Part shown: positions 10,576-23,812 of the stretch, in pieces
Layout of the letters: the number at the start of each line of letters is the position of its first letter
Numbering within the stretch: the first letter of the stretch is position 1
Origin: Leisingera sp. ANG-M1
GTDB lineage: Bacteria > Pseudomonadota > Alphaproteobacteria > Rhodobacterales > Rhodobacteraceae
Direction: 5' to 3'
Assembly (NCBI RefSeq): GCF_000813745.1
Contig: NZ_JWLC01000020.1
Coordinates: 1-64,000 of the forward strand
Length of the DNA: 64,000 nucleotides
Program-made: the position numbers and the translations under genes
The notes under the pieces: model-generated
The model's database searches: none
Seen by the model: the letters and a program-made list of their open reading frames with translations, nothing else
Told to the model about the DNA's origin: nothing

Positions 10576-13500
10576 ATGACAGAACAGAACAGCATGGGCC
10601 CGATCACAGGGACAGCAGGCCCCGACCTTCTTACCGGGACAAACGGCAGCGATGCGCTGCAGGGCCTTGGCGGCAATGACACCCTGGTGGGCGGCCTTGG
10701 CAAAGACACACTGGACGGCGGTGCCGGGTCCGACACCGCAGGCTTTCGCGACATCGACGTGCCGGTCGAAGCCGATTTGGCAGCTGGCACCGCAACGCGC
10801 GAGACCGGCTTTGCCATCGTGTCCGAGGACCAGCCGCTGGCCTCGCTGACCACCGCCCAGACCCCGGCGGAGCTGGTAGCGCAAGCCGCGGCCGGCAATC
10901 TCTACTATAACATCCACACCAGCGACTTCCCCGGCGGCGAGATCCGCGGCCAGCTGCTGGTAGACAGCGACACAACCGACAACGGCATCCGCACGCTGAC
11001 GCTGATCGCAGCACTGGACAGCGCCCAGGAGCCCGGCGGCGCCAGCGACTCCCAGGCCACCGGCGAAGGCCGGGTGGTGATCGTGGTTGACGGCGATGAC
11101 GTCACCTACAGTTCCGAACTTCAGGTCACCGGCCTGGCGGTTTCCGATCTGCTGCCGGTGGCGGGCGTCAGCGCCATCCACCTGCATAATGCGCCTGCCG
11201 GTCAGAACGGCCCGGTCATCACCGACATCGTGCAGGATGCCGGCGGCGATGCAAACGGCCTCAACCCCGGCACGGAAGACGGCAATGTCTTTGACGAGGT
11301 GGCGGAAACCGACACCCTGATCAGCATCGAAAACCTGGATGGCTCCGATGACGGCGACCGGCTGCTGGGCGACCGGGACGCCAATGTGCTGAACGGCAAC
11401 GGCGGCGATGACCTTATTCGCGGCCGCCGCGGCAATGACGAGCTGAACGGCGGCGAAGGCAACGACGACCTCCGCGGCAACCGCGGTGCCGACACTCTCG
11501 ACGGCGGCGCCGGCGATGACGAATTGCGCGGCGGCCGGGGCAGCGACCAGCTGGGGGGCGGCAGCGGCAACGACCTGCTGCTTGGCGGCGCTGGCAACGA
11601 TATCCTCAGCGGCGGCGGCGGCCGCGACACCATCGACGGCGGCGCAGGCATTGACACCAACTCCTTTGCCAACATCAACCAGGGCGCCGCAGACGCCTCG
11701 ATCGCCGGTGTCACCGTGGTGCTGAACGCCGACGGCTCCGGCACCGCGTCCTACAATGGCGGCGGCGGCAATGGCCCGCTGATTGAGGAAGAGTTCACCG
11801 GAATCGAAAACATCACCGGCTCGTCCAACAACGATGACATCCGGGCGCTGGGAGCAGCTCCGAATGCCATCGACGGCGGTGACGGCGACGACTTCATCGC
11901 AGGCGGCGGCGGTACCGACTTCCTGACCGGCGGCGAAGGCACCGACACCAACAGCTTCATCAACATCGGTGCCGAAGTGGTGGCCGACCTCGGCTCCGGC
12001 AGCGCCTCTTACCAGCCCAATGAAACAACCACCGTGTTCGAAAACTTCAGCGGGTTCGAAAACCTCGACGGCTCGGCCAACAATGACCAGCTGTTCGGCG
12101 ACGGCAGCGCCAATACCCTCACCGGCAACGAGGGCAACGACCTGCTGGTCGGCCGCGGCGGCAATGACGTGCTGGAAGGCGGCGCAGGCAACGATATCCT
12201 GCGCGGCGGCGGCGGCGCCGACACCACCGACGGCGGCGAAGGCATCGACACGGCGGACTTCCAGGACATCGGCGCCGCGGTAATTGCCGACCTGAACACA
12301 GGGACCGCTGTTTACCAGGGCCCGAACGGCGCCGTGGCAGACACGCTCCGCAGCATCGAGAACCTGACCGGCTCCTCCAACGACGACATCCTCGTGGGCG
12401 ACGCGGGCGATAACCTGCTGGCTGGCGGCGCAGGCGCCGACACCATCAACGGCGGCGCAGGCAATGACGTGATCCGCGGCGATGCCATCGGCGACGGCGA
12501 GGCAATCACCGTCACCGTAACCAACACCCTGGACGAAGGCGGCACCTTCCTGACCCCGGTCTGGTTCGGCTTCCACGACGGCGAGAACTTCGACCTCTGG
12601 ACCGATGGCGAGGCCGCCAGCGGCGGGCTGGAACGCATCGCCGAGGACGGCAGCGTCGAGGGCATCGCGGCCGAATTCAACCGGCAGGTGGCAGGCGGCG
12701 GCGTCGATGCCACCCTCATCGGCGCCAATGGTGCGCCGGGGCCGATCGACCCGGGCGAAACCGCCAGCTTCACCCTTAATGTGAACGCCGATCAGGTCGG
12801 CCGCGGCTTCTTCACCTGGGCCACCATGATCATCCCCTCCAACGACGCCTTCCTGGCCTCGCCGGATGATGCGCTGCAGGACTTCATCTTTGACGCCGAC
12901 GGCAACTTTGCCGGCCCGCTGGTGATTGAACGCTTCGGCAGCGATGTGCTGGATGCCGGCACCGAGGTGAACACCGAAGAGGGCGCTGCCTTCCTCAACC
13001 AGACCGCCCGCGACCAGGGCACCGCCGAGAACGGCGTGGTCCGCCAGCACGAGGGCTTCAACGGCTCCGAAGGGCTGCCGGATGGCACCCCGGTCAACAT
13101 CCTCGGCGGCACTACCGCGGCGGGCACCATCGTTGACCCGGTGGAAGGCGACTTCACCCGCAATGGCGGGGAAGAGCAGCTGTTGCGTATCGTGGTCGAT
13201 CTGGCCGAGGGCGGCAATGACGTGCTGTCCGGCGGTGATGGGAACGACCTCATCGACGGCGGCCGCGGCAACGACCTGCTGCGCGGCCAGCGCGGCAGCG
13301 ACACCCTGGAAGGCGGCGACGGCAATGACCTCCTGCTGGGCGGCGGCGGCCGCGACCTGGCCGAAGGCGGCGCGGGCAATGACCGCCTCGACGGCGGCCG
13401 CGGAAGCGACACGCTGGACGGCGGCGCGGGCAACGACCGTCTCGACGGCGGCCGCGGAAGCGACACGCTGGACGGCGGCACCGGCAACGACCGTCTCGAA

Positions 13501-13755
13501 GGCGGCCGCGGCGCCGACACCTTCGTCTTCAACGAGGGCTTCGGAGACGACGTGATCACCGATTTCAACGCCTTTGCGCGCGGCGAGACCGTGGACCTGA
13601 CCGGCGGCGATTTCGGCTTTGCCAGCTTTGACGACCTGTCCGGCTCCATCAGCCAGGACGGCAGCAACGCGGTGATCGACTTGGGCAGCGACGGCACGAT
13701 CACCCTTCTGGGCGTGCAGGCCGCCGACCTGAACGAGGACAACATCCTCATCTAA
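10576..13755 (+). CDS. secreted RTX protein with CHRD and spondin-like domains
   Basis: A 1059-residue acidic protein without an N-terminal signal peptide, as expected for type I secretion. In order: a first RTX block (residues 20-55), a CHRD-like domain (about 80-235, with NLYYNIHTSDFPGGEIRGQL and AIHLHNAPAG), several nonapeptide blocks GGxGxDxLxGG (about 260-360, 430-460, 495-545, 600-635), a spondin_N-like domain (about 640-860, starting TVTNTLDEGGTFLTPVWFGF), a long C-terminal RTX block (880-990) and an aliphatic C-terminus that would carry the secretion signal. The RTX repeats bind calcium outside the cell. It is followed directly by its exporter genes. It is probably an adhesin or matrix protein; no catalytic motif was seen. 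Confidence 0.85.
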   Translation: MTEQNSMGPITGTAGPDLLTGTNGSDALQGLGGNDTLVGGLGKDTLDGGAGSDTAGFRDIDVPVEADLAAGTATRETGFAIVSEDQPLASLTTAQTPAELVAQAAAGNLYYNIHTSDFPGGEIRGQLLVDSDTTDNGIRTLTLIAALDSAQEPGGASDSQATGEGRVVIVVDGDDVTYSSELQVTGLAVSDLLPVAGVSAIHLHNAPAGQNGPVITDIVQDAGGDANGLNPGTEDGNVFDEVAETDTLISIENLDGSDDGDRLLGDRDANVLNGNGGDDLIRGRRGNDELNGGEGNDDLRGNRGADTLDGGAGDDELRGGRGSDQLGGGSGNDLLLGGAGNDILSGGGGRDTIDGGAGIDTNSFANINQGAADASIAGVTVVLNADGSGTASYNGGGGNGPLIEEEFTGIENITGSSNNDDIRALGAAPNAIDGGDGDDFIAGGGGTDFLTGGEGTDTNSFINIGAEVVADLGSGSASYQPNETTTVFENFSGFENLDGSANNDQLFGDGSANTLTGNEGNDLLVGRGGNDVLEGGAGNDILRGGGGADTTDGGEGIDTADFQDIGAAVIADLNTGTAVYQGPNGAVADTLRSIENLTGSSNDDILVGDAGDNLLAGGAGADTINGGAGNDVIRGDAIGDGEAITVTVTNTLDEGGTFLTPVWFGFHDGENFDLWTDGEAASGGLERIAEDGSVEGIAAEFNRQVAGGGVDATLIGANGAPGPIDPGETASFTLNVNADQVGRGFFTWATMIIPSNDAFLASPDDALQDFIFDADGNFAGPLVIERFGSDVLDAGTEVNTEEGAAFLNQTARDQGTAENGVVRQHEGFNGSEGLPDGTPVNILGGTTAAGTIVDPVEGDFTRNGGEEQLLRIVVDLAEGGNDVLSGGDGNDLIDGGRGNDLLRGQRGSDTLEGGDGNDLLLGGGGRDLAEGGAGNDRLDGGRGSDTLDGGAGNDRLDGGRGSDTLDGGTGNDRLEGGRGADTFVFNEGFGDDVITDFNAFARGETVDLTGGDFGFASFDDLSGSISQDGSNAVIDLGSDGTITLLGVQAADLNEDNILI
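13381..13500 (+). repeat. 54-bp tandem repeat inside the RTX gene
   Basis: Units beginning GACCGYCTCGACGGCGGCC start at 13381, 13435 and 13489. The first two are nearly identical over 54 bases and the third is partial. Each unit encodes two RTX nonapeptides, so copy number can change without a frameshift. This is the kind of region where slippage or assembly collapse occurs. Confidence 0.8.
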
Positions 13756-13762
13756 ACCAGCC

Positions 13763-13792
13763 GGCTGCGGCAGTCACTCTACCGCCGCAGCC
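13763..13792 (+). terminator. stem-loop between RTX gene and exporter genes
   Basis: GGCTGCGG and CCGCAGCC form an 8-bp stem around a 14-base loop, followed by a pyrimidine-rich tract. It may act as a partial terminator or stabilise the RTX message, which would let the abundant substrate be made in excess over the ABC exporter encoded downstream. Confidence 0.5.
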
Positions 13793-13835
13793 TCCCCGTT
13801 TACCTTTTTACTCCCGCTGCAGAGAAAGGCCGCAG

Positions 13836-15560
13836 ATGCCCCCGCAAACCGCATCCCGCCCCGAACTGAGGCACGCCTTCCTGCGCTGCCTGCCGGCCCT
13901 GGCCGCCACCGGCGGCTTCAGCCTGATCATCAACCTGACAATGCTGACCGGCCCGGTCTACATGATCCTGGTCTACGACCGCGCCCTGCCCAGCGGCAGC
14001 GTGCCAACCCTGATCGGCCTATCGGTGCTGATGATCGGCCTCTACGCCGTCTTCGGCCTGCTGTCCCAGGTCCGCGCCCGGCTGCTGGTGCGCATCGGCA
14101 ACCGGATTGCCAATCTGCTGCAGGCCCGTGTCTTCTCAGCCCAATTGCAGCAGACCGCCCGCCAGGGCGGCACCAAGGGCCAGGACGCCCTGCGCGATCT
14201 CGCCACCCTGCGCGAATTCATCGGCGGCCCCACACCTGCGGTGCTGTTCGATGCCCCCTGGACCCCGGTCTACCTCGGCTTCGCCTGGCTGCTGCACCCC
14301 TGGCTCGGCTATGCTGGGCTGGCTGGCGTGCTGGTCCTGCTGCTTGCAGCGCTCCTGAACAACGCGCTGGTGCAGCGCGGCGCCCGGCAAACCGCGCCGG
14401 ACCAGGCCCGCGCCGCCCGCATGATGGCCGACATCACCCGCAATCACGAAGTGATCGGCGCCATGAAGATGGGCCGCGACCTTTATGCCCGCTGGAGCAG
14501 CCTGCAAAACCAGGCCATGGTCCGGCAAAGCCGCACCAGCGACCTGACTTCCGACCTCTCCGCCCTGTCCCGCACCCTGCGGCTGCTGCTGCAATCCGCG
14601 GTGCTTGGGCTGGGCGCCTACCTGGCCATCGGCGGCGACCTCAGCGCAGGGTCGATCATCGCCGCCTCGGTGCTGACCGGCCGCGCGCTGGCCCCGGCCG
14701 AGCAGGCGATTTCCGGCTGGCGCCACTGCGTCGCCGCCCGCGGCGCGCAGCAGCGGCTGGAGACCCTGCTGGCCGCAAACCCCGAGGCCGCCAGCAGCAT
14801 CCGGCTGCCGCAGCCCAAGGGCGCCATCGAGCTTAAAAACGTCTTTGCCGCCGCTCCCGGCCAGACCCAGCCGGTTCTTAAGAACGTCAGCCTGTCGCTG
14901 CAGCCGGGCGAAGTGCTGGCGGTGATCGGCCCCAGCGGCTCGGGCAAATCGACCCTGGCACGGGTGATCGCCGGCGCCTGGCCCGCGATGCGAGGAGATG
15001 TGCGCCTCGACCGCGCTGCCATCGCCTATTGGAACGCAGTGCAGCTGCAAAGCGCCATCGGCTACCTGCCCCAGTCGGTAGAGCTGTTCGACGGCAGCCT
15101 GCGCGAAAACATCGCGCGTTTCCACGCGGATGCCAAGGACGAGGACATCATCGCCGCAGCCGCAGCAGCCAACGCCCACGATCTGATCCTCAGCCTGCCC
15201 CAGGCCTACGCCACCCCCTTGGGCGAAGGCGGCAATGCGCTGTCCGGCGGCGAGCGCCAGCGCATCGGCCTCGCCCGTGCGCTCTACGGCAGCCCCGCAG
15301 TTGTGGTTCTGGATGAGCCGAACTCAAACCTCGATGCCGCAGGCATGACCGCTCTGAACATGTCCCTCCAGCACCTGAAAGCCTCCGGCAAAACCGTGAT
15401 CCTGATCGCCCACCGCCAGAACGCATTGGCACTGGCCGACAAGGTGCTGGTGCTCGACAAAGGCCAGGTATCGGCCTTCGGCCCGCGCGAGGATGTGCTC
15501 AACACCTATTCGAAAAACCGCGCCGCCATGACCCGCAAGAAGGAGCAGGAAAATGCCTGA
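13836..15560 (+). CDS. type I secretion ABC transporter (PrtD/HlyB-like)
   Basis: A 574-residue fused exporter: a six-helix membrane domain (residues about 15-300) and one ABC domain. Walker A is GPSGSGKSTL, the signature is LSGGERQRIGLARAL, Walker B is VVVLDEPNSNLD and the H-loop is LIAHR. There is no N-terminal C39 peptidase or C39-like extension, as in PrtD-type exporters of RTX proteins. It overlaps the adaptor gene by 8 bases. Together they would export the RTX protein encoded just upstream through an outer-membrane TolC-type channel not present in the window. Confidence 0.92.
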   Translation: MPPQTASRPELRHAFLRCLPALAATGGFSLIINLTMLTGPVYMILVYDRALPSGSVPTLIGLSVLMIGLYAVFGLLSQVRARLLVRIGNRIANLLQARVFSAQLQQTARQGGTKGQDALRDLATLREFIGGPTPAVLFDAPWTPVYLGFAWLLHPWLGYAGLAGVLVLLLAALLNNALVQRGARQTAPDQARAARMMADITRNHEVIGAMKMGRDLYARWSSLQNQAMVRQSRTSDLTSDLSALSRTLRLLLQSAVLGLGAYLAIGGDLSAGSIIAASVLTGRALAPAEQAISGWRHCVAARGAQQRLETLLAANPEAASSIRLPQPKGAIELKNVFAAAPGQTQPVLKNVSLSLQPGEVLAVIGPSGSGKSTLARVIAGAWPAMRGDVRLDRAAIAYWNAVQLQSAIGYLPQSVELFDGSLRENIARFHADAKDEDIIAAAAAANAHDLILSLPQAYATPLGEGGNALSGGERQRIGLARALYGSPAVVVLDEPNSNLDAAGMTALNMSLQHLKASGKTVILIAHRQNALALADKVLVLDKGQVSAFGPREDVLNTYSKNRAAMTRKKEQENA

Positions 15561-16851
15561 TACCGCACCTGAGCCCACCGGCAGCACCCGCGGCTGGACC
15601 CTGTTCGGCCTGGCGGTCAGCACCGCCATGCTGGGCGGCCTTCTGGCCTGGAGCCTCAGCACCCGCATCGACGGCGCGGTGATCGCGCCCGGGACCGTCG
15701 GCCTGCAAACCAGCCGCCAGGTGATCCAGCATCTGGAAGGCGGCATCCTTGCGGGAATCAGGGTCCGGGAGAACCAGCAGGTTGCCGCGGGCCAAGTGCT
15801 GGCCGAACTCGACACCACCCAGGACCAGGCAGAACTGAACGCGGCCAACAGCCAATTTGCCAGCCTGACCCTCCGCCAGGCCCGCCTCAAGGCCGAACGG
15901 GCCCAGTCCGGAACACCGGATTTTTCCGTTCCGCTGCCGCCGGTGGCCGGAACCGCGGACATCCTCGCCGCCGAGACCGGCCTGTTTGAAAAACGCACCG
16001 CCTCGGCCCGGGCGGAAACCGCGCTGCTGCAGGCCCGCCGTGCCGCCCTTGCAGCGCAGATCAGCGGCCTCACCAGCCAGAACCGCGCCCTGCAGGCCGA
16101 CCTCGCCCTGACCCGGGACGAGCTTGCCACCATCGAAACCCTGGAGGCCAAAGGCCTGGTCCCCGTCACCCGCCTGCTGGAGGTGCGCCGCAGCATTCTG
16201 AACCTCGAGGCCGCAATCTCGGGCAACGCCGCCCAGACCGAAAGCCTGCACGCACAGATCGCCGAGGCAGACAGCGAGCTGACCCGCAACACCGCCCGCT
16301 GGCAGGAGGAGATCTCCGTCAGCCTGGCAGAAACCGGCCAGCAGCTGCGCGAGCTGCAGGAGCAGCGCACATCGCTGCAGGACCGGATCCGCCGCAGCCG
16401 CATCACCGCACCGCGCGCGGGCCGCGTCCTCAACCTCGCGTTCCACACCGCCGGCGGCGTCATTGCGCCCGGCCAGCCGCTGCTGGAGATCGTGCCTGTG
16501 CAGGATGAAACCGTCCTTACCGCCAGTATCCGGGTCACCGACATCGACCGGGTGGCCGCCGGCCAGCCCGCGCGGGTGCGTCTGACCGCCTTCAGCGGCA
16601 ACCAAACCCCGGAACTGCACGGCGAGGTGAAAACGCTGTCTGCCGACACGCTGACCGACCCGGCCACAGGCCAGCCTTACTACAGCGCTGAAATCACTGT
16701 CGCCGCCGCGGAATGGCGCCGGCTCGGCGGCCAGCCCCTGGTGCCCGGAATGCCGGCAGACGTGATGATTTCAACCGGTGAACGGCTTGCCGCCACCTAT
16801 CTCACGCGCCCGCTGCAGGACGCGTTCTCAGGTGCCTTCCGGGACGACTGA
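15553..16851 (+). CDS. type I secretion membrane fusion protein (HlyD/PrtE-like)
   Basis: A 432-residue adaptor with one N-terminal transmembrane helix (FGLAVSTAMLGGLLAWSL), a lipoyl-type half (GTVGLQTSRQVIQHLEGGILAGIRVRENQQV, the family hallmark), a long coiled coil from about 90 to 285, and a C-terminal beta domain starting TAPRAGRVLNLAFHTAGGVI. It bridges the inner-membrane ABC exporter and the outer-membrane channel. The gene starts within the end of the ABC gene, so the two are translationally coupled. Confidence 0.9.
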   Translation: MPDTAPEPTGSTRGWTLFGLAVSTAMLGGLLAWSLSTRIDGAVIAPGTVGLQTSRQVIQHLEGGILAGIRVRENQQVAAGQVLAELDTTQDQAELNAANSQFASLTLRQARLKAERAQSGTPDFSVPLPPVAGTADILAAETGLFEKRTASARAETALLQARRAALAAQISGLTSQNRALQADLALTRDELATIETLEAKGLVPVTRLLEVRRSILNLEAAISGNAAQTESLHAQIAEADSELTRNTARWQEEISVSLAETGQQLRELQEQRTSLQDRIRRSRITAPRAGRVLNLAFHTAGGVIAPGQPLLEIVPVQDETVLTASIRVTDIDRVAAGQPARVRLTAFSGNQTPELHGEVKTLSADTLTDPATGQPYYSAEITVAAAEWRRLGGQPLVPGMPADVMISTGERLAATYLTRPLQDAFSGAFRDD

Positions 16852-16872: not shown

Positions 16873-17346
16873 TCAGCCGTCCAGCCGCTTGGCGCGCAGC
16901 AGCGGCTGGTCAAAGTTATACATGACCAGCTGCCCGTCGGCGCCGATATCCATGCGGTTGACCAGACCGATCTGCTGCAGGAATTCGCGCTCCACAATCA
17001 TCGTCTCTTCGTCGCACAGCCCGCCGCCGATATCGAAGGGCGAGAACATCAGATTTTCCACATCCGGCCCGAAGGTTGTGGTGAAGCTCCTGCAAGGGCC
17101 GGAGCCGTACAGCGTGCCATTGTCGAAATCGAACCGCAGTTCCCCAAAGGGCTGCAGATCAATGTCTTTGACCTCCTGAACGATCCAGGCCCCGTCGAAA
17201 TTCTCTGCCGTAAGTGCCGCCATTGAAGCTCCTCCGTCCTGTCCGTTCCTATCGTCAGATGCAAAGACCAAGACGGCAATACCGCCGGCGCAAACCCCCG
17301 CCAGAACCGCAGCAAAGGCGGTGCGGACAGAGGGCAGACCCATCAT
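16873..17346 (-). CDS. META/HslJ-like exported small protein
   Basis: A 157-residue protein with an N-terminal hydrophobic anchor (FAAVLAGVCAGGIAVLVFA) followed by a domain resembling META/HslJ: LRFDFDNGTLYGSGPCRSFTTTFG, then FSPFDIGGGLCDEETMIVEREFL. The two Cys residues sit where META domains often have them. Function in the envelope is unknown; relatives are linked to stress or antibiotic tolerance. The start is uncertain: two adjacent ATGs at 17346 and 17343 place the anchor at the N-terminus, while the open frame runs back to 17469. It is divergent from the giant gene that follows. Confidence 0.6.
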   Translation of the reverse strand: MMGLPSVRTAFAAVLAGVCAGGIAVLVFASDDRNGQDGGASMAALTAENFDGAWIVQEVKDIDLQPFGELRFDFDNGTLYGSGPCRSFTTTFGPDVENLMFSPFDIGGGLCDEETMIVEREFLQQIGLVNRMDIGADGQLVMYNFDQPLLRAKRLDG

Positions 17347-17533: not shown

Positions 17534-20500
17534 ATGCCTCTTGATGGATCTGCCGCTAAAGAAATCAAGCAACAGATGGCCCTCGCGAAGAAGCGGGAAC
17601 TGTCCTTCGGGTTGTGCTTCGGCAAGAAAATCGAAAACTCGGTCTTTCTCACCCATAAAACCAAGGCTGCCAAGATCTTGGGCAAGCAGGCAAAGTCGGA
17701 CGGCGAGACGCCGCAGTTCTCCTTCGGCACGCTGAAACTGGACGGCAAGGAGCTGTCGCTGAAGGTCGAGGGCAAGATCGTGCCCGGCATGGCCCGCAAG
17801 GCCAAGAAGATGTTCATGGTGGTGGGCCTCAAGTACAAGATCCTGATCCTGGATCCCTCCGGCGCCGTTGTTGAAACCGAAGACGACGAGGACGAGGCAG
17901 GCGACGCCCCGCAGGACGCCCCCGCCGCCAGCGGCGACACTGCCACTGAAGCACCGGAGGATGCGCCCGAAGCCGGTTCCTCTGAACCGGACCCGGCCGA
18001 GGCCAAGTGGAAGACCACAGCAACCAAGGTCGAGGCCAACCTGGCCAAGCTGCGCGAGATTGCCGGCATCGACCTCTCCAAGGCGCTGGCGCTGTGGAAA
18101 GCAATCCAGGCCAAGGCCGAAAGCGGCGGCTATGCCGCGGCGCTGGAACATGTTGCCAAACTCTCTGAAGAGATGAAAACCGCAGCCAAGGAAGCTGCAG
18201 CCAATGCCAAGCGGCAGGCGATGCTCGAAGCCAAGTGGCAGCAAGCATCCGCCAAGCTCGAGCCCCTGGTCAGCGAAGTGCTGGCGATGCAGACGCCGCA
18301 GTCCGGGAAGATCGAGGCAGTCTGGACCCAGATCACCGCCCGCGCCGCCGCAACGCCGCCGGATTACGAAGGCGCGCTCAAGGCCGTCGGCCCGCTGGCG
18401 CAAGCGATTTCCAAGGCCCGCCAAGCCGCCGCTGAAGCCGCAGAAGACACTGCCGAAGAGGCATCGCCGTCAGGCGCTCCGGCCTCCGGCGGAGACACAG
18501 CAACAGAGACCAAACAAGAAGCCCCGGCCAAAGCCTCCGGCGCTGAGGCGCCGCCCTCGGGCGATGGCGGCGATGATGCCGCCGAAGTGGACGTGGCCGA
18601 GCAGATCGCCCGCATCGAGGCCGCACTGAAGGCGCTGCGGGACGGGCCGGTCAAATCATACAACACCATGGTACCGGAGGCAGTCAGTACCACGCCTGAC
18701 AAATGGAAAGCGGCGCTCGACAAGGTCGAGGCGCTGGCCGCCCAGGCCAAGGCCAACCCCGAAGCTGCCAGCGGCGCCAAGCTGGATGCCGGCGAAAAGG
18801 CCCTCGGCGCGCTGGAAAAAGCGGTTGCCGCCGACACCGAAGCCAAGACCGCCTTCCAGAAAGCGCTGGAGATCTTCGACCTGCGGATGGTGCCGCTGAC
18901 GAGCCATCCCAAGGCCGCAGCACCTGAAATCGCGCCGGAAATTACCCGCATCAACGGCCTGCGCACGGCGGCCATCGAAAAGGCCAAGACCCACGACCTG
19001 AAAGCCGCCACCGATGACCTGAAGGCGGCCGAAAATGAGATCGCCAAGGCTGAGGTTCTGGCCGATGACTTTGCCCATTTCATGGCGCTCGACCCGGACC
19101 GCAAAGCGCTGGCGGATGCCGACCGCGGCAAGACCACCGGCGATCCGGCCTTGGACGACTCGGCCCGCGAAATGGAGCGGCTATATGATGCCGCGCAGCA
19201 GGACAAGGCTGCCAAGAAGTTCAAGGACGGCGTCAAAAAGCTGGAGCAGATTGCCGACGTCAATGCCAAAACCGCCAAGGTGAAAACCCTGCGCAAACGC
19301 TATGACGACTGGCGCCCGAAGGCCAAGACCTGGGTCGACAGCTGGGCGGGCCTCGCCGTAGCCGTGAAAAACCTGCTCAAGGACAAGCTGGACGAGGCCA
19401 ACGGCTATTATAACGATTCAGACGTGGCCACGAGCAAAGACTACGGCGAGTCGGTCAAATTGCTTGGCAAGTTCTGGAATGTGCGGCCCTTCATCGAAAA
19501 GGAAATTCCCGTCGTCCAGCAATACCCGCCAAAGCTGACAGCCTTCGAGGCCAAGCTGAAGGACTTCAAGGACCACGACGGGGCGTCCGGCATCCAGGTC
19601 ATCATCCTGAAGATGGAAGCGGATCTGGCCTCGGCCAAGTCCGAGGCGGCGCTGCACAAATTCTCCTCGGCGCTGGCTCTGCTTGATGCGACACAAGGCG
19701 ATTGGGCCAAAGCCACAGCCCAGGCGGATGCCTGCAAGGCTTACAAGGAAAAGCGGGTTGCCGTGCAAGGCAAGATCGACGCCCTGAAAAACGTGCCCCC
19801 GGCCGAACCGATGGTGGCCGACGCCAAGGCGCTGATGGCCGAGGCTGCAGCGCTGGCGCTGAAACACGACTACCCGGCCGGCAGCAAGGCGCTGGACGAG
19901 GCCGAAAAGCGCGTCGGCAATGCCAAGGCCGCAGCCGACGCCTCGGTCGAGCTGGACGGCATGACCGACACCGCCGCGCTCGACGATCTCAAGAAAAACT
20001 GGGACCCGGCCTTCAAGGTCTTCACCGGCATCCGCGACAAGGTCGTTGCAGCCGACACCGGCAATGACTTCACCGCGTTGATCGCCAAGGCGCAGCTGCC
20101 CGCGGCCGAAGCGGAAAAGGCAAAGACCGCCAAGAAATGGGACGATGCGCGGGCGCATCTGGACAGCGCCATCTCGAACCTGAAAATGGCCATGGTGCTG
20201 ATCCACCAGCACCGCGCCTATGGCGATCTGAAGACCTCGCTGACCGCCAAGGCCGCCGCCCTGGCGCCGCTGAACGACACCAACTGCATTCAGCCGCATA
20301 TCGACGACATCACCCGGCTGACCGGCGAGGCCGACAATCTGATCAAGCCGGAAGGCTATGACTACAAGGGCGCCGAAGCCAAGCTGGGCGAAGCCCGCAA
20401 GATCGAAGAGCAGGCCCGCGCGGACGGTGCGCTGTTCCAAACCATCAAGGCCGACCGGGCCAAAGGGGCTGCGGTCATCGCCAAGATCGTGACCGAGGGC

Positions 20501-23071
20501 GGAGCGGTCGAAACCCAGCTGACCCACCGCAAGACCGAGATCCAGACGCTGCTGGACGAAAGCACCGCCAAGCAGACGGCCCGCGACTTCAAGGGTGCGG
20601 CCGAAAAGGCCAGCGCGGCTGCGGGCTGGGAAAAGGCTACGGATGAGGATCTGAAGACGCTGAAAACCGTGCTGGGCTGGGAGAACCAGTATTTTGTTAC
20701 GCCGCGCGCAGCGCTGGTCGGCCCCGGCAAGGAGGCCGGGGTGCATCAGATCGCCCGCGCCGATGCGGCTTATGCCAAATACGAGGCGGCCAAGGCCGCC
20801 CATACTTACTCTCTGGCGCTGCGGCTGTTTGAAAAAGCCTATCAGGCGATCCTGGCCTGCCAGCGGCTGATTGCCGCCGCAGACCTGTACAAACCCGCCG
20901 AGACCGATGCCAAGGCAGCGGTGGATGCGCTGGCGCCCGAACGAAACGGCGCCACCGAAGACCGGATCAAAGCGCTGGAGGACCGCTTTACAGCGGCCAA
21001 GATCGACACCGCCAAAACCGACCTGACCGACAACGACTATTCCCAGGCCGAAAAGCTGATGAAGTCGATCACCGCAGATGCCAAGGCCCTGCTCGCCTCG
21101 GTCAAAGGCTCGTCGGACTATGAGCCCGCCCGCGCCGCGGCCGAAGCCAAGCTGACCGAGGCCAAGGCCCACAAACACGCCGATGCGATCCAGGCGCAGC
21201 TCACCCGGCTGTCGAAAAAGTACGAAAACCTCGTCAAACTGGCCCCCAGCGATTACGCAACCGCCAAGACCATGGCCGAAGAGGTAACAGCCTCAGCCGA
21301 GGAGGCGATCAGTTCGGCGGGCACCCAGGGCATTCTGGAGGCGGTGAACGGCGCCATCGGCGGCGACGAAGACAGCGCACCCTGGTGGCCGCAGGTGCAG
21401 GCCGCGAAACTGGCCATCAATGGCGTCGGCCTGCGCGAGAATGCAGCGGTGGCCAAGACCCAGCTGGATCTGGCCAATACCGAGATCGAGAACTGCCAGA
21501 AGGACGGGCTGGACGCCAAAACCGCCAAGGGCCACCTGCTGGCCGCGCTCGAAGCCTGCAACACGGCCAACGAGGTGATCTCGCAATACGCCTTCATCAT
21601 ACAGGAAATCACCCGTGCCCGCGCCGGCATCGGATCGGTCCGCGGCCATGCCGAGGCCGCCTATGTGAAGGATGAGCTGGACGAGGCCGAAAAGCTGCTG
21701 GACGGCGCCGAAACCGCGGCCAAGGCCGGGCAGAACTACACCAAAGTCAGCGCCGACATCGAAAAGGCAATTGCGCTCACCAAGACCGCGCAGGAGCTGG
21801 CCGATCTCTACAAACAATACAAGGAGCTGCGCGCCAAGCCCGAGGTGGAGCCGCGCCTGGCGGTGCTGGAAAAGCACGAGCACCGCTATGCCATCAAAGC
21901 CAGCATCGACACCATGCGCAAAAAACTGGCTGACGCGGCGGCACAGGCGGCCTCCAAGAACACGGCCGAGGCCATCAAGCTCTTGGAAGAGGCCCGCGCC
22001 ATCGGCACCAGCGCCTTTGTCATGGCCGAAATGCGTGCCAACAATCCCCCCAAACCGGAGGACATCAAGGAAATCCTGTCGCGGCCCAATGGCACCGACG
22101 AACTGGACGCGATGATCGACAATCTTGAGCCGGAGGCTCAGCGCGCCGTTGTCAAAGTTGCTTTCAAGGAGCGTTTCGGCTGCGATATCAAAAACTTCAG
22201 CAACGAAAACCTGGCGCCTGCCAGCGAAATTGCCGATGCCGATCTGAAGGGCCCCAACATCGTTGCCTTCTACAAGGCAATGCAGGACCTGCCGCTGGAC
22301 CACACCCTGAACAACGACTCGCTCAAAAGCTTCGCCATCAACGAGGCAGCAAAAGGCGGCTCGATGTACCAGGGCGACAAAAAGCGGATCGTGATGCACG
22401 AAGGCGACGCCGGCCTGTCGCCCAATTACGCCTTCGGCAGCGACGATGCCGTGGGCAGCCTGGACGATGCCGCCACTCCGGAGGAACGGGCCGAGCTGGA
22501 GAAATGCAAACCGGCCAACGACGAGCCGGTCACTTTCTTCAACTGGAACACCCTGCATGAGGTGGGCCATGCGGTGGACGACAAGAAAGGCTTCATGAAC
22601 AGCAACGGCGGCAAGAAGGACTACGGCGGCTGGACCGAACACGGCATGGATATTGCCGGCATCGCCGAGAAGATCGCAACCAAGTTCAGCTACGACAAAG
22701 CCTATGTCACTGAATACATGGCGCATAACAAAAGCGCCCATGTGCCGGACAAGCCCGCGGATGAGACCTGCTCGGACGAAGACTGGGAGGCCCGGCGCAT
22801 CAAGATGCAGGCCTTTGTCGACATGGCCTCGGAGCCGGCCAAGCCCTGGTCCAGCATGGCCACGGCCAAGAAGCTGGCGATTGGCGGGGTGGTCTATCAG
22901 GAAAGCTACACCAATGCCTGGAACTCCTATCTGCTCAGCGAGCGGGCCAAGGGGATCACCGGCTATCAATTCCGGGCCCCGGGCGAATGGTTCTCCGAGC
23001 TCTATGCCGCTTATCATTCGGGCAAGCTGAAACCGAACCATCCGGCGGTTGGCTGGCTGTCAAAACTCTGA
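17534..23071 (+). CDS. giant helical-repeat protein with C-terminal HExxH metalloprotease-like domain
   Basis: An 1845-residue protein with no signal peptide or membrane segment. Residues 1-113 form a compact lead domain (FGLCFGKKIENSVFLTHK... KYKILILDPSG). An acidic Ala/Pro linker follows (114-155), with a second at about 300-350. From 200 to 1490 a helical motif recurs, aromatic or hydrophobic residue then xxAxxxLxxA, at residues 200, 278, 417, 489, 563, 637, 710, 780, 869, 944, 1019, 1092, 1169, 1241, 1326, 1402 and 1477, a period near 75. The C-terminal 330 residues carry LHEVGHAVDD (His1675, Glu1676, His1679) and a later GEWFSELY (Glu1818, Glu1822) that could supply the third zinc ligand, as in gluzincins. 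AGGAG at 17522 fixes the start. The family is not recognised. It could be a cytoplasmic toxin or effector protease, or a structural protein with a protease head. Confidence 0.8.
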   Translation: MPLDGSAAKEIKQQMALAKKRELSFGLCFGKKIENSVFLTHKTKAAKILGKQAKSDGETPQFSFGTLKLDGKELSLKVEGKIVPGMARKAKKMFMVVGLKYKILILDPSGAVVETEDDEDEAGDAPQDAPAASGDTATEAPEDAPEAGSSEPDPAEAKWKTTATKVEANLAKLREIAGIDLSKALALWKAIQAKAESGGYAAALEHVAKLSEEMKTAAKEAAANAKRQAMLEAKWQQASAKLEPLVSEVLAMQTPQSGKIEAVWTQITARAAATPPDYEGALKAVGPLAQAISKARQAAAEAAEDTAEEASPSGAPASGGDTATETKQEAPAKASGAEAPPSGDGGDDAAEVDVAEQIARIEAALKALRDGPVKSYNTMVPEAVSTTPDKWKAALDKVEALAAQAKANPEAASGAKLDAGEKALGALEKAVAADTEAKTAFQKALEIFDLRMVPLTSHPKAAAPEIAPEITRINGLRTAAIEKAKTHDLKAATDDLKAAENEIAKAEVLADDFAHFMALDPDRKALADADRGKTTGDPALDDSAREMERLYDAAQQDKAAKKFKDGVKKLEQIADVNAKTAKVKTLRKRYDDWRPKAKTWVDSWAGLAVAVKNLLKDKLDEANGYYNDSDVATSKDYGESVKLLGKFWNVRPFIEKEIPVVQQYPPKLTAFEAKLKDFKDHDGASGIQVIILKMEADLASAKSEAALHKFSSALALLDATQGDWAKATAQADACKAYKEKRVAVQGKIDALKNVPPAEPMVADAKALMAEAAALALKHDYPAGSKALDEAEKRVGNAKAAADASVELDGMTDTAALDDLKKNWDPAFKVFTGIRDKVVAADTGNDFTALIAKAQLPAAEAEKAKTAKKWDDARAHLDSAISNLKMAMVLIHQHRAYGDLKTSLTAKAAALAPLNDTNCIQPHIDDITRLTGEADNLIKPEGYDYKGAEAKLGEARKIEEQARADGALFQTIKADRAKGAAVIAKIVTEGGAVETQLTHRKTEIQTLLDESTAKQTARDFKGAAEKASAAAGWEKATDEDLKTLKTVLGWENQYFVTPRAALVGPGKEAGVHQIARADAAYAKYEAAKAAHTYSLALRLFEKAYQAILACQRLIAAADLYKPAETDAKAAVDALAPERNGATEDRIKALEDRFTAAKIDTAKTDLTDNDYSQAEKLMKSITADAKALLASVKGSSDYEPARAAAEAKLTEAKAHKHADAIQAQLTRLSKKYENLVKLAPSDYATAKTMAEEVTASAEEAISSAGTQGILEAVNGAIGGDEDSAPWWPQVQAAKLAINGVGLRENAAVAKTQLDLANTEIENCQKDGLDAKTAKGHLLAALEACNTANEVISQYAFIIQEITRARAGIGSVRGHAEAAYVKDELDEAEKLLDGAETAAKAGQNYTKVSADIEKAIALTKTAQELADLYKQYKELRAKPEVEPRLAVLEKHEHRYAIKASIDTMRKKLADAAAQAASKNTAEAIKLLEEARAIGTSAFVMAEMRANNPPKPEDIKEILSRPNGTDELDAMIDNLEPEAQRAVVKVAFKERFGCDIKNFSNENLAPASEIADADLKGPNIVAFYKAMQDLPLDHTLNNDSLKSFAINEAAKGGSMYQGDKKRIVMHEGDAGLSPNYAFGSDDAVGSLDDAATPEERAELEKCKPANDEPVTFFNWNTLHEVGHAVDDKKGFMNSNGGKKDYGGWTEHGMDIAGIAEKIATKFSYDKAYVTEYMAHNKSAHVPDKPADETCSDEDWEARRIKMQAFVDMASEPAKPWSSMATAKKLAIGGVVYQESYTNAWNSYLLSERAKGITGYQFRAPGEWFSELYAAYHSGKLKPNHPAVGWLSKL

Positions 23072-23107: not shown

Positions 23108-23812
23108 ATGTCGTTATTTCACCCCGTCAACCTGGTCTGCCCGCAGTGCGAGGCACCGGTGACCATGATGGCTGTTGGCAGCGTCAATGCCGATCGCCGC
23201 CCGGACCTGAGAGAGGATATTCTCTCGGACCGGTTCCAGGACATGTCCTGCGAGGCTTGCTCCGAAAGCTTCCGCCTGCAGCCGCAATTCAATTACCTGG
23301 ACGCAGGCCGCGGCCAGTGGATTGCAGCCATGCCCGCAAACCGCCTGCGCGATCATCTGGAGCTTGAAGACGAGGCGCGGGAGCTGTTTTCAACCAGCTA
23401 TGGCGACGCTGCACCCGCGGCGGCGCGGGATGTGGGCGGCGGGCTGGCAGTGCGCCTCACCTTCGGCTGGCCGGCGGTTCGGGAAAAGCTGCTGGTGCGG
23501 CAGCTGGAATTGGATGACGTGATCGTGGAGATGATGAAACTGCACATCCTGCGCAGCGTCGAATCCGTGCCTCTGGCCGAAGGCATCGAGCTGCGGCTGA
23601 CCGGCACCGATGACGACACCGGCGGCTATGTCTTTGCCTGGCTGGAAACCGCATCAGAGCAATATATCGAGTATCTGACCGTTCCCGCAGAACTTTACGA
23701 GGCGATCCACGCCAATCCCGACGGGTGGCAGGCGATCAGGGACCGGCTCGAAACCGGGCCGTTTGTCGATATGCAAAAACTCTACATGGGTGAAGGCCGG
23801 GCAGCCGGATAG
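23108..23812 (+). CDS. CpXC-domain zinc-ribbon protein
   Basis: A 234-residue soluble protein. Its N-terminus has LVCPQCEAPV and, about 40 residues later, MSCEACSESF, the paired CxxC layout of a CpXC-type zinc ribbon. The rest is acidic, mixed helix and strand, with no catalytic motif. It begins 37 bases after the giant metalloprotease-like gene on the same strand, so the two are probably cotranscribed. A chaperone, immunity or adaptor role for the giant protein is possible but only inferred from position. Confidence 0.7.
   Translation: MSLFHPVNLVCPQCEAPVTMMAVGSVNADRRPDLREDILSDRFQDMSCEACSESFRLQPQFNYLDAGRGQWIAAMPANRLRDHLELEDEARELFSTSYGDAAPAAARDVGGGLAVRLTFGWPAVREKLLVRQLELDDVIVEMMKLHILRSVESVPLAEGIELRLTGTDDDTGGYVFAWLETASEQYIEYLTVPAELYEAIHANPDGWQAIRDRLETGPFVDMQKLYMGEGRAAG

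Follow-up and report, generated by a model that had tools for sequence, protein, structure and literature searches.

The window analysed here, a stretch of 64,000 nucleotides from Leisingera sp. ANG-M1 (contig NZ_JWLC01000020.1, positions 1 to 64,000), encodes a giant protein, P0001, that is probably a polymorphic effector of the roseobacter type VI secretion system (T6SS) with a second, TssCL-like sheath protein. P0001 combines an N-terminal domain (NT), a long repeat array and a C-terminal peptidase domain (CT), and its gene is followed by a gene for a CpXC-domain protein. We infer secretion, toxicity, target and protection in the following form. NT would dock P0001 on the T6SS projectile, with the repeat array as a long spacer or cargo-holding part. 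After injection, the M34-like zincin would cut a target-cell protein, probably a bacterial cytoplasmic one, while CpXC would protect the producer or else chaperone the peptidase. Relatives have the peptidase-CpXC unit with NT either fused in cis or encoded separately just upstream. In what follows, G and L numbers denote genomes and loci of this analysis, G000 being the window's own genome; genes of fetched loci were predicted with a custom gene caller.

NT was searched in 295 genomes of the family. Using the first 120 residues as query, matches were obtained in 27 genomes; a 66-row profile identified 28 genomes with a total of 79 matches (E value of 0.001 or lower), 75 of these matches scoring at least 47 bits. 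Among 385 genomes drawn from the class, NT was found in only one besides G000. TssC was present in 72 of the 295 family genomes. In 32 of these, the first TssC shares at least 78% identity with the G000 protein and is accompanied by a second match of about 30% identity in a different and mostly larger frame. Genomes with this combination are referred to as TssCL type and, judged by sequence, appear to carry the TssCL-type T6SS of PMC9515649. NT occurred in 27 of the 32 TssCL-type genomes, in none of the 40 other TssC genomes and in one of the 223 genomes without TssC (Fisher p 4e-32). Conversely, of the 28 genomes with NT, 27 are of the TssCL type and one, the 90-contig draft G027, lacks TssC. 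In 11 of the 40 other TssC genomes, TssC was 70-89% identical to the query and the second match was absent. Because these 11 genomes lack NT, NT tracks the second sheath protein and not merely TssC relatedness.

As to gene position, 14 of the 32 TssCL-type genomes have an NT match no more than 5 kb from tssC, and 16 have one within 10 kb; in the other NT-positive ones it lies elsewhere. For a closer view, 60 stretches around most NT and CT places were fetched, plus six annotated plasmid loci. NT was located directly divergent upstream of tssA in 12 of 14 loci and within ten genes in all 14, a sample biased by the fetching of stretches for NT or CT; the count of 14 of 32 within 5 kb of tssC is less biased. 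In G000, the T6SS is encoded on a different contig from P0001 (G000:C19), and a second NT gene (281 aa) heads that locus and diverges from tssA. TssA, TssB, TssC, Hcp, ImpE, TssE, TssF, TssG and a ClpV-like protein were identified there by Pfam, whereas VgrG, PAAR-like, FHA, TssK, TssL and TssM genes were named by eye. The second sheath protein (G000:C19:15165-20264, L111-L112) has 1699 aa, with a TssB-like start and a TssC-like end by eye, joined by a linker of about 980 aa with a net charge of -332 and 31 motif matches about 21 residues apart. Between a 415-aa uncharacterised gene and this TssCL gene lies a gene for a 284-aa protein resembling a voltage-gated cation channel by eye (G000:C19:14318-15172). 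ExbB/ExbD/TonB-like genes were seen by eye in ten T6SS loci (L056, L058, L062-L064, L069, L073, L079, L084 and L085), and in most of them the NT gene has an OmpA-like and a caspase-like neighbour; the caspase domain was confirmed by Pfam in a different gene, in L076, only.

NT is a mobile N-terminal module. In the fetched loci it was found in 67 proteins of 107-1927 aa. Apart from a few exceptions such as L066, it sits at the N-terminus or close to it, and some proteins have two copies. A Pfam scan of 18 proteins, comprising NT fusions, genes adjoining NT genes and neighbours, assigned DUF4781 plus a DNA/RNA endonuclease to the fusion L092, VanY (just at the cut-off) to the fusion L096, CdiA_C to L098 and a protein kinase to L101, the latter two encoded after an NT gene, and a caspase-Sel1 architecture to L076, one of the neighbours. 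The remaining 13 of the 18 gave no meaningful Pfam match. Toxin-type domains were thus present in two NT fusions and two genes after an NT gene, and in none of the other 14. NT itself corresponds to no recurrent family: the window copy had no Pfam or NCBIfam match, and in a Pfam scan of 72 copies no family appeared in more than four, the best E being 1e-4. A structure model of residues 1-118 was alpha/beta (pLDDT 79, pTM 0.64). The domain is basic, with a net charge of +12 over residues 1-113 of P0001 and a positive net charge in all 66 aligned copies (median +8). The first-pass annotation, made from the window alone, had proposed the N-terminal 113 or so residues as a targeting or docking domain; this proposal gains support, at the level of sequence, from the recurrence of a real domain elsewhere and its link to toxin-like domains and the T6SS. 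The single-contig genome G175 (G175:C1) has 14 NT matches around its chromosome, apparently a large effector set (loci L068, L081, L088, L091, L093, L096, L097, L100 and L105). Some of the six effector-like proteins of cluster 20 carry NT in cis. One of the cluster, L068:11919-15392, has a papain-like Cys motif by eye; no Pfam match was obtained for L095 and no NCBIfam match for L068 and L095.

Docking of the basic NT on the acidic TssCL linker was examined in 20 further second-sheath loci (14 from NT-positive roseobacters, four from NT-negative roseobacters and two from Burkholderiales) and is unsupported as a general rule. Linker length and acidity vary widely across these loci. Four of the 14 NT-positive loci (G077, G219, G244 and G131) have short proteins without an acidic linker, in G175, the genome richest in NT matches, the linker lacks strong acidity, and two of the four NT-negative loci (G263 and G272) do have an acidic linker.

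CT is predicted to be an M34-like zincin metallopeptidase. HEVGH at residues 1675-1679 is the only HExxH in P0001, and the predicted structure of CT resembles the M34 zincins, namely the catalytic domain of anthrax lethal factor (LF) and the Pro-Pro endopeptidase PPEP-2. By analogy with M34 peptidases, we take Y1811 to be the catalytic Tyr and E1818, 139 residues after H1679, to be the third zinc ligand. Following a whole-domain search, H1675 was kept in all 13 family members, the window included, and E1676, H1679, Y1811 and E1818 each in 12. The sole exception for these four residues is L062, which has an NT in cis and is followed by CpXC (L062:5457-8360, minus strand); HQLGR replaces HExxH there, and this CT copy is probably inactive, judging by sequence. 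Pfam ATLF matched four of 17 CT members (best E 5e-4) and none of the other 13, the window member among them. The zincin-like C-terminus anticipated in the first-pass annotation from HEVGH and a downstream Glu therefore agrees with the modelled fold, E1818 being the Glu that fits.

CT was present in 11 of the 295 family genomes, 10 of them with a TssCL-type T6SS, a distribution that lends no support to the earlier suggestion of a very large protease scaffold. A scan of 84,980 species genomes returned 90 relatives, of which 79 CT loci were kept, overlapping in genomes with the 17 earlier CT loci. They come mostly from Rhodobacterales and also from Burkholderiales, Planctomycetota, Rhodospirillales, Azospirillaceae and one deltaproteobacterial metagenome-assembled genome (MAG). 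HExxH was present in 78 of the 79, a count that is not independent because the scan patterns contained HExxH and WF[SA]ELYAA; the conservation in 12 of 13 members given above is independent of these patterns. A distant, shorter CT relative (27% identity) without CpXC was seen on a Streptomyces plasmid (L047:9383-10603), near a polymorphic toxin gene with a HINT domain.

CpXC is the next same-strand gene after CT in 76 of the 79 public loci, Alpha- and Betaproteobacteria and Planctomycetota among them; of the three others, L189 is a genuine exception, while in L180 and L183 the contig ends too early. Among 80 family genomes, all four with CT have CpXC, as does one of the 76 without. An alignment of the 76 sequences has 13 invariant columns, two of them Cys, and two further Cys are conserved in every sequence reaching them. 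Two CxxC motifs are present in at least 57 of the 76, a lower bound because the gene caller starts the window CpXC at 23165 and omits the first CxxC, which the ATG at 23108 retains. No function for the CpXC Pfam family was found in the accessible open-access literature searched. We regard CpXC as a candidate immunity protein or chaperone of the peptidase. Together with the T6SS tie, the toxin-like partners of NT and the zincin fold, this pairing supports, on sequence grounds, the first-pass suggestion of an effector or toxin.

The degree of CpXC conservation, with 13 columns identical in 76 of 76 sequences, weighs against an ordinary immunity role. It fits a reading in which CpXC, with its invariant and further conserved Cys, is no immunity protein but serves the peptidase as its own chaperone or in zinc handling, and in which the effector is aimed at eukaryotes (protists, algae or host animals) and not at bacteria. 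We consider this unlikely, though the strongest of the alternatives. The substrates of the characterised proteins closest in fold to CT are eukaryotic or extracellular, which also favours it, as does the entry 'No' in what appears to be the immunity column for LF-like and M34 domains on RIX effectors (PMC10435454). On the other hand, CpXC is small, downstream and one-to-one with the peptidase across swapped N-termini (76 of 79), which is the position of an immunity gene, whereas T6SS chaperones are usually encoded upstream. Moreover, other NT-linked proteins have antibacterial-type domains (VanY and CdiA_C).

CT is associated with divergent sheath proteins outside the family as well. In 48 CT genomes examined from the 79 loci, VipB was present in 46 (none for L162 and L182), and a divergent VipB match of 118-176 bits in 41. 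The family of Roseateles toxinivorans (G709) was represented by 150 genomes, of which 43 have VipB and 13 have a second, divergent one; the four genomes with CT all belong to these 13; excluding the centre genome G709, CT occurred in three of 12 genomes with a second VipB vs 0 of 137 (p 4e-4). In three genomes the genes share one contig stretch. In G784, the second VipB (2.477 Mb) falls between two CT genes (2.459 and 2.510 Mb), with VipB at 2.538 Mb; in G709, the second VipB (123 kb) again falls between two CT genes (105 and 155 kb), with VipB at 182 kb; and, in G752, which has a CT fragment only, this fragment at 80 kb, second VipB at 76 and VipB at 47. In L179 (Roseateles toxinivorans) and L186 (a Burkholderiaceae MAG), CT-CpXC is followed by genes matching tssM, tssL and tssK of G000.

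This closeness of CT genes to sheath genes in Burkholderiales would suit a scheme in which NT serves the T6SS as a structural or regulatory component and the giant protein, instead of being injected, acts as a protease inside the T6SS, for instance in sheath turnover. The proximity of NT to tssC in 14 of 32 TssCL-type genomes, its position divergent from tssA in 12 of 14 loci (fetched because they hold NT or CT) and the high conservation of CpXC point the same way. Nevertheless we judge it improbable: CT was detected in no more than 10 of the 32 TssCL-type genomes, which means that the T6SS persists where CT is missing, and NT is linked to unrelated toxin-like domains.

NT may be supplied in cis or in trans. 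For the 79 CT genes, NT is in cis in 28 and in a nearby upstream co-directional gene in 11. In nine of these 11 the NT gene is the immediate upstream neighbour, and in L179 and L186 one gene intervenes. Another N-terminal module of about 75 residues, NT2 (LTxxQxxFI...), is found at the start of 22 of the 79 CT proteins and of five effector-like proteins belonging to clusters 20, 32 and 39. NT was found in none of 33 NT2 entries, at least six of which are the same gene fetched twice; nine entries lie directly after an NT gene, nine more have NT in the stretch and 15 do not. In our reading, the separate upstream NT gene would encode an adaptor acting in trans. Because NT2 never occurs with NT, starts varied proteins and is often near an NT gene, NT and NT2 might be two halves of an effector-docking code which, with the LF-like peptidase and CpXC, would make up an undescribed delivery class. 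In short, T6SSs with a second TssCL-like sheath protein would use effectors that carry NT themselves, or effectors that start with NT2 and depend for loading on an NT adaptor, whose gene lies just upstream or within the T6SS locus. We put this forward tentatively, at slightly less than even chance; if true, the class would reach from roseobacters to Burkholderiales and Planctomycetota.

The reading frame of P0001 is uninterrupted over 17534-23071 (plus strand), confirming a single protein of 1845 residues. P0001 was the single match within its own genome (5.37 Mb searched), gave no Pfam domain at E 0.1 and contained no long hydrophobic segment (maximum KD19 1.32). The coordinates of the features are collected in Table 1.

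Table 1. Features of P0001 and its partner gene in the window.
Feature	Position	Strand	Extent	Remark
Giant protein P0001, candidate T6SS effector	17534..23071	+	1845 aa	
NT domain, mobile N-terminal module, predicted alpha/beta	17534..17887	+	residues 1-118	distribution, model, charge
Array of 17 repeats of about 75 aa	18002..22033	+	residues 157-1500	longer gap near residues 301-375
CT domain, predicted M34-like zincin metallopeptidase	22235..23068	+	residues 1568-1845	
HEVGH, predicted two zinc ligands and catalytic Glu	22556..22570	+	residues 1675-1679	
Y1811, predicted catalytic Tyr	22964..22966	+		conservation and analogy with M34 peptidases
E1818, predicted third zinc ligand	22985..22987	+		conservation and analogy with M34 peptidases
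CpXC-domain gene (PF14353), candidate immunity protein or chaperone	23108..23812	+	234 aa	downstream partner

The first-pass annotation had described about 17 helical repeats of some 75 residues marked by the motif aromatic-xxAxxxLxxA. The 17 positions are spaced 70-89 aa apart, except for one gap of 139. Taken literally the motif is too strict, fitting two of the 17 (869 and 944; 0.25 expected by shuffling), although the first residue is aromatic at 13. The repeat itself was borne out. With a matrix trained on alternate sites, seven of eight held-out sites ranked in the top 33 of 1442 positions, and eight of nine in the top 85; two sites failed (ranks 317 and 523). A profile was then built from all 17 copies, so that its count of 17 in P0001 is circular. 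It scored at least 10 bits in 14 of 1070 called proteins, 13 of them CT proteins; of the 12 besides that of the window, 11 have 7-17 copies and one has four. Four further CT proteins (L047, L049, L059 and L062) remained below 10 bits. Because of the held-out scoring and of profile matches in 13 of 17 CT proteins and one other among 1070, the degenerate repeat of about 75 aa is real. Its units may be helical: Ala makes up 299 of the 1400 residues from 151 to 1550, but the hydrophobic moment did not favour a 100-degree period over 160 degrees (z 3.3 vs 4.0).

Upstream of P0001, the window contains type I secretion genes (10576-16851), and export of P0001 by this route is very improbable: genes for an RTX protein, a type I ABC transporter and HlyD adjoin it, a relative of the ABC protein (cluster 29) is also encoded in the stretches retrieved for three more NT loci (L048, L099 and L107) and in L048 a type I permease/ATPase and an HlyD gene directly precede the NT gene, but P0001 lacks RTX repeats (PF00353 is absent, though strong in the neighbour at 10576-13755), the orthologues in Leisingera thetidis and Phaeobacter G2 have no annotated type I secretion gene next to them, and cluster 29 occurs in none of the CT loci L051-L062. 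Divergently upstream of P0001 lies a small gene (16873-17223, minus strand), annotated with a META domain in Leisingera thetidis. Its cluster is present in five CT loci (the window, L045, L051, L052 and L054), and a gene of similar size and strand was seen at more CT loci.

We know of no universal signal in T6SS cargo effectors, so that every newly recognised delivery domain gives access to a group of toxins not known before. NT would provide a simple genome marker for likely effectors of TssCL-type T6SSs, and CT-CpXC is a candidate toxin-partner unit open to direct test, which would give CpXC a role. No description of NT, NT2 or the CT-CpXC pair was found in the accessible open-access literature, which leaves preprints and most subscription journals outside. 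The closest known systems are the following. RIX (PMC10435454) is likewise an N-terminal module on varied C-terminal toxins and in separate adaptor genes, with adaptor-effector-immunity operons; some of its C-termini are called anthrax toxin LF-like or M34 peptidase, so that LF-like domains are already listed for T6SS effectors. The cis-trans arrangement of NT and NT2 would be analogous to these effectors and secreted adaptors. RIX is described from Vibrionaceae, and for the secretion of Tme1 its first 60 residues are enough, whereas NT has about 115 aa, is predicted to be alpha/beta, occurs in roseobacters and a few other lineages, is a candidate for delivery, and is associated with a peptidase followed by CpXC. 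MIX, FIX, PIX and WHIX (PMC6267618, PMC6688995, PMC12135965; PIX via PMC12994826) are further polymorphic effectors sharing a non-toxic domain; NT may differ from these and from RIX, the Pfam scan of 72 copies having shown no recurrent family.

The T6SS locus of G000 fits the roseobacter TssCL type of PMC9515649, with TssB, TssC, ImpE and, as named by eye, the 1699-aa TssB-TssC-like fusion, FHA and PAAR-like genes. This T6SS was present in all 11 Leisingera squid symbionts of that 2022 paper, the accessible text of which describes no function for roseobacter T6SSs and names no P0001-like effector. An LF-like metallopeptidase as C-terminal toxin of polymorphic toxins is known as Tox-ALFMetallopeptidase (Zhang et al. 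2012, PMC3482391); that toxin is listed for PVC and the type II secretion system with Imm-SuFu, whereas CT is tied to the T6SS and CpXC, a name with 0 occurrences in the text of that paper searched. P0001 differs from lethal factor and PPEP-2 of M34 in its 139-residue spacing from H1679 to E1818, the absence of a Pfam domain and the CpXC partner. The first-pass statement that no described system has this layout thus holds in part. A shared N-terminal domain with a C-terminal toxin and a partner gene is known, and a polymorphic T6SS effector with a delivery domain is a known kind; the proposed delivery domain, its tie to the TssCL-type T6SS, the pairing with CpXC and the repeat array appear new.
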